From: Mesobacillus sp. AQ2
Lineage (GTDB): Bacteria; Bacillota; Bacilli; Bacillales; Cytobacillaceae
NCBI RefSeq assembly: GCF_030122805.1
Contig: NZ_CP126080.1
Span: forward strand, 2,609,001 to 2,673,000
Length of the DNA: 64,000 bases
Reading direction: 5' to 3'
Shown piece by piece: positions 32,757 to 40,979 of the stretch. A program made the position numbers and the translations under genes. Numbering within the stretch: position 1 is the first letter of the stretch; each line of letters begins with the position of its first letter. The notes under the pieces are model-generated. The model was not told the DNA's origin, searched no databases, and worked only from the letters and a program-made list of their open reading frames with translations.

Positions 32757-33806
32757 TCAAGATTCGATTTTACCAATAAATTGGAGGTCTTCTGCATTAA
32801 ACTCACTTGGAGAGCTTTCAAGAATTTTTTTCACGTCAGATAAAGTTTCTTTTAATCCTACTGTTACACCTTTTTTCCCAGTATAAGGTTCGGCAACATA
32901 AAAGGGCTGAGTCAAATAGGCCTCCAGTTTTTCACCTTGCTTGTAGACTTGAAGTTCGGATTCCGGCAGACGGCCGACACCGTGAACCGTAACGATCGAA
33001 CGCAACTCCCGATATCGGCGGAGTAATTTTTGTGCTTTTTGCTGTACGCCATGGTGAACGGGGTCTAGATAAGAACCCTCAAGGATGGAAGATGTAGAGT
33101 AGATAGGATTTACGGCCGGATATTTATGTCTTGCAGCCAAATCAGCATCGAATTGCCACAAAGTATCGAGCGGTCCATATGGAAGATCATCATCCACTGC
33201 TTCTCCTTTTAAATCGAGCAAGAATGTTGTTACTTCTGTCATGTCTTTATCATCAAGCATTTCTTGCAGGGTGTACATCTCTCCTGATAAAACATATGCA
33301 CGATCAGCTGTAAGTACAAATTTCTTGTCAACCCCTGCAGAAATCATCATGTTAAAAGTCTCTTCTATACTATTAGCCACAAAGTCAACATCATCAAGGA
33401 TGTCGTTCATTTCAGGATGGTTGTCCTTTGGATTGAGAAGAATGGTCTTATACTCTTCCATTTTTAATCTGTGCAGCATTTCAGCCAATACTACTAATTG
33501 GCCCATACCCGGCCGTGCGACCAGGCCAACTGTCCCGCCTTTTGCAATTGGAGCAAATAAGTCTAAGATTTTAATACCAGTTTCGATCATTTCCACACTC
33601 TCCCCTCTTAAAATAAGTTCATCCAGGGAGCAGCCAGCAAGCTCCGCCAGTGCCACAATTGTACGTACCTCCGCCCTGCCAACGGGAATTTTACCCGTAG
33701 ATAGGTTTGAAACAGTAGCAGGTCTTAGTCCGACAGATTTTGCTGCGGTAGTAAGATTAGGTACTCGCTTCCTCAGTAAAGCCACATTCAATCTAAGTTT
33801 TTCCAT
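32757..33806 (-). CDS. HTH protein fused to a degenerate F1-ATPase beta-subunit-like domain
   Basis: This 349-residue protein has two parts. Residues about 8-65 are an XRE/LacI-like helix-turn-helix (LTTAAKSVGLRPATVSNLSTGKI). Residues about 72-349 align by eye with the nucleotide-binding and C-terminal regions of AtpD: ETGIKILDLFAPIAKGG, PAVNPIYSTSSIL, LLRRYRELRSIV, QPFYVAEPYTG and GLKETLSDVKKIL. The P-loop is damaged: GGAGVGKT becomes ARPGMGQL, losing the catalytic Lys and Thr, and the GERTREGND segment is missing. It probably binds DNA and may sense nucleotides without hydrolysing them (inference). The ATG at 33806 follows AAGGAGGAGG; an upstream in-frame extension is discarded. Confidence 0.82.
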   Translation of the reverse strand: MEKLRLNVALLRKRVPNLTTAAKSVGLRPATVSNLSTGKIPVGRAEVRTIVALAELAGCSLDELILRGESVEMIETGIKILDLFAPIAKGGTVGLVARPGMGQLVVLAEMLHRLKMEEYKTILLNPKDNHPEMNDILDDVDFVANSIEETFNMMISAGVDKKFVLTADRAYVLSGEMYTLQEMLDDKDMTEVTTFLLDLKGEAVDDDLPYGPLDTLWQFDADLAARHKYPAVNPIYSTSSILEGSYLDPVHHGVQQKAQKLLRRYRELRSIVTVHGVGRLPESELQVYKQGEKLEAYLTQPFYVAEPYTGKKGVTVGLKETLSDVKKILESSPSEFNAEDLQFIGKIES

Positions 33807-33819
33807 CGCTTCCTCCTCC

Positions 33820-33880
33820 TTACTTTTAATAGTAATCATTTTTACTCTATAAAGCAACGATCACTTACTCTCTAAAGTAA
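33820..33880. promoter_or_regulatory. Two identical-plan dyads upstream of the HTH/F1-beta gene, candidate operator
   Basis: TTACT-N6-AGTAA occurs at 33820-33835 and again at 33865-33880, 45 bp apart. The nearer one ends just before the ribosome-binding site. This spacing and symmetry suit autoregulation by the encoded HTH protein. Confidence 0.6.
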
Positions 33881-40911: not shown

Positions 40912-40927
40912 ACGTAAACGTTTACGT
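40912..40927. promoter_or_regulatory. Operator upstream of the LacI-type gene
   Basis: ACGTAAACGTTTACGT is a perfect 16-bp palindrome, sharing its 12-bp core with the site before malL. Confidence 0.8.
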
Positions 40928-40979
40928 TCTAAATTAATCATAATATGGTTTCAATCTTATATCAACTATTTCTTATAAA

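Follow-up and report, generated by a model that had tools for sequence, protein, structure and literature searches.

Relatives of the catalytic subunits of rotary ATPases serve flagellar and type III export as well as gliding in Mycoplasma. We know of no such relative that has been turned into a DNA-binding regulator. In the type 3 beta-like subunit of Mycoplasma, a change of the Walker A lysine is reported to abolish function (PMC12994834). Among repressors, NrdR joins a Zn-ribbon to an ATP-cone and binds best when paired boxes lie whole helical turns apart (PMC12051234).

The locus described here was found in a 64,000-nucleotide stretch of the Mesobacillus sp. AQ2 chromosome (NZ_CP126080.1, positions 2,609,001 to 2,673,000), hereafter called the window. 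It encodes protein P0001, whose start was picked from AGGAGGAGG just 5' of it and from the conserved N-terminus of the family. Features of the gene are as follows (window positions).

32757..33806, minus strand: coding sequence of the HTH/pseudo-F1-beta protein P0001, 349 aa (ATG start, stop included)
33603..33806, minus strand: HTH domain, residues 1-68, CylR2/Xre-like (profile and predicted-fold comparison, conservation of the HTH segment)
32760..33602, minus strand: F1-beta-like RecA core and C-terminal helical domain, residues 69-349 (profile, fold match)
33495..33518, minus strand: Walker A in degenerate form, residues 97-104 (ARPGMGQL, with Gln for Lys and Leu for Thr)
33303..33305, minus strand: retained Walker B Asp, residue 168 (Asp in 187/187)
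33120..33122, minus strand: aromatic of the adenine pocket kept at residue 229, matching F1-beta Tyr345 (Tyr/Phe/Trp in 187/187)
32880..32903, minus strand: further part of the adenine pocket kept at residues 302-309, matching F1-beta Phe418 to Thr425 (family alignment)

A first-pass annotation had read the gene as an HTH domain fused to a degenerate F1-ATPase beta-like domain that follows AtpD to its end, and that observation was confirmed. A predicted N-terminal XRE/C1-like HTH is joined to the RecA-like core and C-terminal helical domain of AtpD type; the N-terminal beta-barrel of AtpD is absent and the HTH occupies its position. In the predicted structure the match to F1-beta begins at residue 69 and extends to the C-terminus. 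The HTH fold, accompanied by flanking strands, was predicted to be nearest to CylR2 (TM 0.72-0.78; Foldseek E 0.02). In profile searches the F1-beta part scored 124.9 bits against the atpD equivalog (TIGR01039), below its cut-off of 462.85, and the HTH matches stayed under the Pfam cut-offs (HTH_26, 16.2 bits versus 22). The VIA rows for P0001 were mostly F1-beta, the top row being G1-ATPase 9io5, tied with true beta chains; other folds may match as well. Across 68 loci, the HTH was the most conserved of four segments (mean 0.83 for residues 1-68 versus 0.63, 0.77 and 0.65).

With a probability of roughly 0.75, we consider P0001 to be a one-component transcriptional repressor whose sensor is a catalytically dead F1-beta domain, which autoregulates its own gene and has an amidase gene as a second target in some lineages.

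Residue conservation was determined in a family set of 189 sequences, made up of 121 proteins and 68 loci and containing some near-duplicates and fragments. At the Walker A lysine position, 187 of the 188 sequences that have a residue there carry Gln and one carries Lys; the threonine position is Leu in 175, and a P-loop glycine is replaced by Arg (residue 98) in 186 of 188. P0001 itself reads GMGQLV where the GxxxxGKT of AtpD is expected. In an alignment with 12 AtpD sequences, no counterpart of the GERTREGND segment was found in the family, and DELSEED is lost as well by comparison with AtpD. Both the exchange of Lys-Thr for Gln-Leu and the missing catalytic segment had been noted on first inspection of the single sequence.

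The adenine pocket, in contrast to the phosphate pocket, is kept. In F1-beta, Tyr345 and Phe424 hold the adenine ring, and Ala421 and Thr425 belong to the same pocket. F1-beta residue numbers are given at the positions of the family alignment presumed to correspond to them. Besides the aromatic at the Tyr345 position, the family has Pro at Pro346 (187 sequences), Phe at Phe418 (184), Ala at Ala421 (187), Phe or Tyr at Phe424 (182) and Thr or Ser at Thr425 (185). A docking study (PMC5608556) names V165, F166, P346 and F418 as lining the adenine-binding pocket and places a docked compound between Tyr345 and Phe424. Such a pattern of conservation would be expected if the family domain had kept its ability to bind an adenine moiety and lost the ordinary mode of triphosphate binding; from this we infer an adenine-containing ligand as the likeliest signal. 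P0001 could instead be, as the first-pass annotation suggested, a true ATP/ADP energy sensor that binds ATP through its altered P-loop, as the retained pocket and Walker B Asp would allow. The loss of the phosphate-holding Lys and Thr in nearly all members, together with that of the Glu-containing segment GERTREGND, argues against ordinary ATP binding, and such a sensor is rather unlikely.

P0001 matched 816 proteins at E≤1e-3 among 7997 candidates scored. Of these, 120 were listed, with lengths of 347-366 aa and identities of 63-97%; many of the 120 bear the name ATPase subunit beta in their source records, which the present reading would correct. Forty-eight family loci lie in named genomes, mostly of Bacillaceae and Paenibacillaceae, with one record titled Clostridium. 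In a sample of 398 Bacilli genomes, 19 carried the gene (E≤5.6e-73), the remaining listed matches being at 1.4e-24 or weaker, as expected of AtpD; in a phylum-wide sample it was present in three of 398 genomes (E≤1e-50), one of them outside Bacilli. The family is widespread but patchy. Given the nearly invariant Gln and the presence in 19 of 398 Bacilli genomes, the gene is no passing pseudogene. A quick tree, built from a short search and with 22 of 59 inner branches weak, shows Halobacillus, Evansella and Thalassobacillus each as coherent groups but places a Paenibacillus clade next to Mesobacillus, a position suggestive of some transfer. The first-pass annotation knew of no characterised member, and no description of this HTH/pseudo-F1-beta family was found in searches of open-licence papers.

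Several other settings for the gene were considered and rejected: (i) a general conserved gene cluster, since the neighbours of the 68 loci change by genus save for an amidase gene; (ii) a phage gene or mobile element, as a close-relative search gave no relative in viral contigs, the 19 matching phage records were all below 60% identity with alignments starting at residue 57 or beyond, as expected of AtpD, and just one of the 30 plasmid records listed out of 108, an 897-kb Paenibacillus replicon, holds a family member; (iii) anti-phage defence, with no PADLOC match. Some copies deserve mention. A 93% identical gene in a Mesobacillus neighbourhood stands in a record titled Chryseobacterium sp. 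ISL-80 (L005, JAGGQZ010000020.1), whose label is probably wrong. Decayed copies were seen in L097 (without the HTH, and with stop codons before the beta-like part) and L051 (broken into several ORFs), and G280:C23:19086-19463 is a second, truncated copy with an internal TAG, the full copy being on another contig.

Upstream of the family genes a 16-bp palindrome, TTACTTTWTAAAGTAA, is repeated. In 58 upstream regions (65 minus seven near-duplicates; three loci without recognisable start were left out), TTAC-N8-GTAA occurred 71 times versus 0.2 expected from 20 mononucleotide shuffles, and TTAC/GTAA at spacers of 4-7 and 9-12 occurred 0 to 3 times. A position weight matrix (PWM), grown from a seed picked by eye, marked 154 sites in 54 of the 58 loci, 38 of which had at least three. 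Neighbouring sites were spaced at exactly 22 bp in 59 of 100 steps and at 21-24 bp in 87. Upstream of the P0001 gene the following elements were predicted.

33820..33835, no strand: operator 1, TTACTTTTAATAGTAA (PWM 17.8 of 20.8), over the likely -10 and touching the ribosome site
33842..33857, no strand: operator 2, TTACTCTATAAAGCAA (PWM 19.3 of 20.8), over the likely -35
33865..33880, no strand: operator 3, TTACTCTCTAAAGTAA (PWM 19.3 of 20.8)
33829..33857, minus strand: likely promoter, TTGCTT (33857-33852), 17 bp, TACTAT (33834-33829), read by eye and conserved in the 24-array alignment

In the 24 aligned arrays, TTGC and TACT stand at -35/-10 spacing within the two proximal sites in nearly all rows. 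The -35 and -10 of the P0001 promoter are weak by consensus, and a consensus promoter scan did not call them. Four loci (L012, L022, L051, L085) have no site just upstream of the family gene; the amidase gene comes first there, and a site or array precedes it. In a fifth amidase-first locus, L020, the array lies before the amidase gene and one stray site inside it. Elsewhere in the window (40922-40937), a weak operator-like site of 12.0 bits, a chance-level score, lies 28 bp before a LacI-type gene.

Judged from this arrangement, HTH dimers would sit on the same side of the DNA at TTACTTTWTAAAGTAA palindromes spaced by about 22 bp (two helical turns), and dimers so bound would cover the -35 and -10 of the gene's own promoter and shut it off. 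The direction of control is not readable from sequence, and some loci have additional sites further upstream, as an activator or a protein of mixed action might use. On the likely -35 and -10, though these hexamers were read by eye, a protein bound to the two proximal sites would block RNA polymerase, so that activation appears improbable. The repressor might also act as a ring: an F1-like homohexamer would present six HTHs as three dimers to three operators at 22-bp intervals, and an adenine-type ligand bound in the dead catalytic pockets would open or close the ring on the DNA. This is a speculative extension with little chance of being right; if true, the motor's former conformational change would now operate a gene switch.

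Model R2 was built from 46 rows, two of which, from L088, are offset by 5 bases. Further targets were sought with a single-site model in 24 carrier genomes; 150 candidates were scored per genome, so targets may be missed. Among the 50 single-site loci read, 16 were a family gene's own array, one was an amidase array and 33 were others, of which 22 had the site inside an ORF, nine outside ORFs and two no site of at least 11 bits near the match. Paired sites among those nine were seen only in L206/L259. This best promoter-like extra case, from Fictibacillus sp. BK138, has two sites with a 22-bp step ahead of a Peptidase_M3 gene; they (L259:2007-2044) lie about 45-65 bp before the gene, possibly a second regulon member. 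Six single operator-like sites outside ORFs (L251:1494, L253:1485, L231:1502, L246:1480, L239:1449, L252:1575) score 13.7-18.5 bits about 50-160 bp before an ORF, each in a single genome, and may be due to chance. The same perhaps holds for a high-scoring site (19.6 bits), a single case, where a MutH-like gene begins beside a C5 cytosine methylase gene (L260:1863, genome G277). A perfect single operator of the Mesobacillus sp. AQ2 genome (G000:C1:3133938) was dropped as it lies inside an ORF. In most genomes searched, Mesobacillus sp. AQ2 included, the self-target alone is convincing. In that genome the atp genes, one for AtpD included, form a separate cluster to which the P0001 gene does not belong; regulation of the atp operon was discarded, the gap before its first ORF having no operator of at least 8 bits.

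The neighbour that recurs across genera is an acetamidase/formamidase-like gene, whose product matches FmdA_AmdA (PF03069) above the Pfam cut-off but below the NCBIfam formamidase cut-off. It lies within three genes of the family gene, on the same strand and before or after it, in nine of 68 loci from several genera (eight distinct loci, because L043 and L091 are identical). The two genes overlap in L043 and are about 10-75 bp apart in L049, L044 and L020. In a selection of 41 carrier genomes (G086 and G412 are apparently one), a close amidase (E<1e-90) was present in 16 distinct carriers; in ten of these it lies under an operator or behind the family gene, in six, Mesobacillus sp. AQ2 among them, neither, and the amidase gene of that genome has no operator upstream. 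With amidase promoters kept out of PWM training, an operator of 15.2-18.9 bits was found within 280 bp upstream of the amidase gene in seven of 17 carrier loci (16 distinct), and for each of the seven 0 or 1 of 1000 Markov shuffles scored as high. Two of these amidase genes are unlinked to the family gene (L106, Bacillus sinesaloumensis, 18.0 bits; L107, Pseudalkalibacillus caeni, 17.7 bits); about 3.6 sites of at least 17 bits are expected by chance per 4.8 Mb at 58% A+T. Four of the other ten rows (L104, L105, L109, L110) have the amidase as second gene without a site of its own. Close amidases occur in 29 non-carriers; the 25 of these that were tested all scored 6.2 or less in the 280 bp, although farther upstream, at about 380 bp, one of them (L153) has a site of 14.5 bits. 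Co-occurrence is partial, a close amidase (E≤1e-50) being present in five of 19 carriers versus 29 of 379 non-carriers.

These operators at amidase genes, and their absence from the gap before the atp operon, also speak against a role in which P0001 would act on the F1 motor as a decoy or regulator, its beta-like part binding F1 subunits and its HTH serving autoregulation only. A fold that follows F1-beta to the C-terminus and a self-array that is the sole convincing target in most genomes would suit such a role; as the N-terminal barrel is lost along with DELSEED and the catalytic segment, it is nevertheless quite improbable.

The link between array and family gene was assessed with a sequence-only model (R1) built from 23 of 31 arrays and the window. 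In the search of 398 Bacilli genomes, 13 candidates were scored per genome, which gives a ranking rather than a census. At E≤5e-5, matches were obtained in 13 genomes, all of them carriers, each directly upstream of the family gene. At E≤4.8e-4 they extended to 16 of 19 carriers versus three of 379 non-carriers (G249, G268, G362), and at E≤0.01 to 36 genomes, i.e. the 16 carriers and 20 non-carriers. Eleven of the 16 matched carriers had fed R1 (nine via their own loci, G000 via the window, and G086 via L043, apparently the same assembly); G196, G286, G144, G019 and G369 were outside its training. The three carriers missed are G338, which is amidase-first, and G313 and G339, in which the HTH-encoding end of the gene is missing (in G339 the gene lies at a contig end).

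That the array is the operator of another regulator, with family gene and amidase as mere targets and the HTH doing something else or nothing, is very improbable: binding by P0001 is a prediction from sequence and three non-carriers have array matches, but the matches track the family gene across genomes, all 25 non-carrier amidases lack the operator within 280 bp, and the HTH is the most conserved segment. The first-pass suggestion of a possible transcription factor gains support from the predicted operators at the gene's own promoter, from the array matches, which are concentrated in carriers, and from the predicted operators at carrier amidase promoters. As a repressor, P0001 would control the amidase gene in some lineages through the same operators, whether clustered or unlinked. 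Its F1-beta part probably binds an adenine-containing ligand and would then change shape or oligomeric state, by which DNA binding would be released or tightened. A defined operator, a candidate partner gene and harmless hosts make ligand and mechanism directly testable.

Compared with the F1-ATPase beta subunit (AtpD, TIGR01039), P0001 lacks the beta-barrel, the Walker A Lys and Thr, GERTREGND and DELSEED, and it carries an HTH and is encoded outside the atp operon. Like Xre/Cro-C1 repressors such as CylR2 and those of lambda and P22, it has palindromic predicted sites on its own promoter, and by prediction it may have their HTH fold with flanking strands; its sequence match to them is weak, and its sensor would be a relic of F1-beta. 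The FmdA_AmdA acetamidase/formamidase is a candidate target of P0001, not its relative. New here is the conserved array of predicted operators upstream of the family gene. By analogy, P0001 would resemble NrdR as a repressor with whole-turn box spacing and a nucleotide-sensing domain, although the domains are unrelated. Mycoplasma MMOB1670/G1-ATPase and the type 3 F1-like X0 (PMC12994834) are rotary-ATPase beta paralogues with a new job, as proposed for P0001, but they are multi-subunit ATPases.
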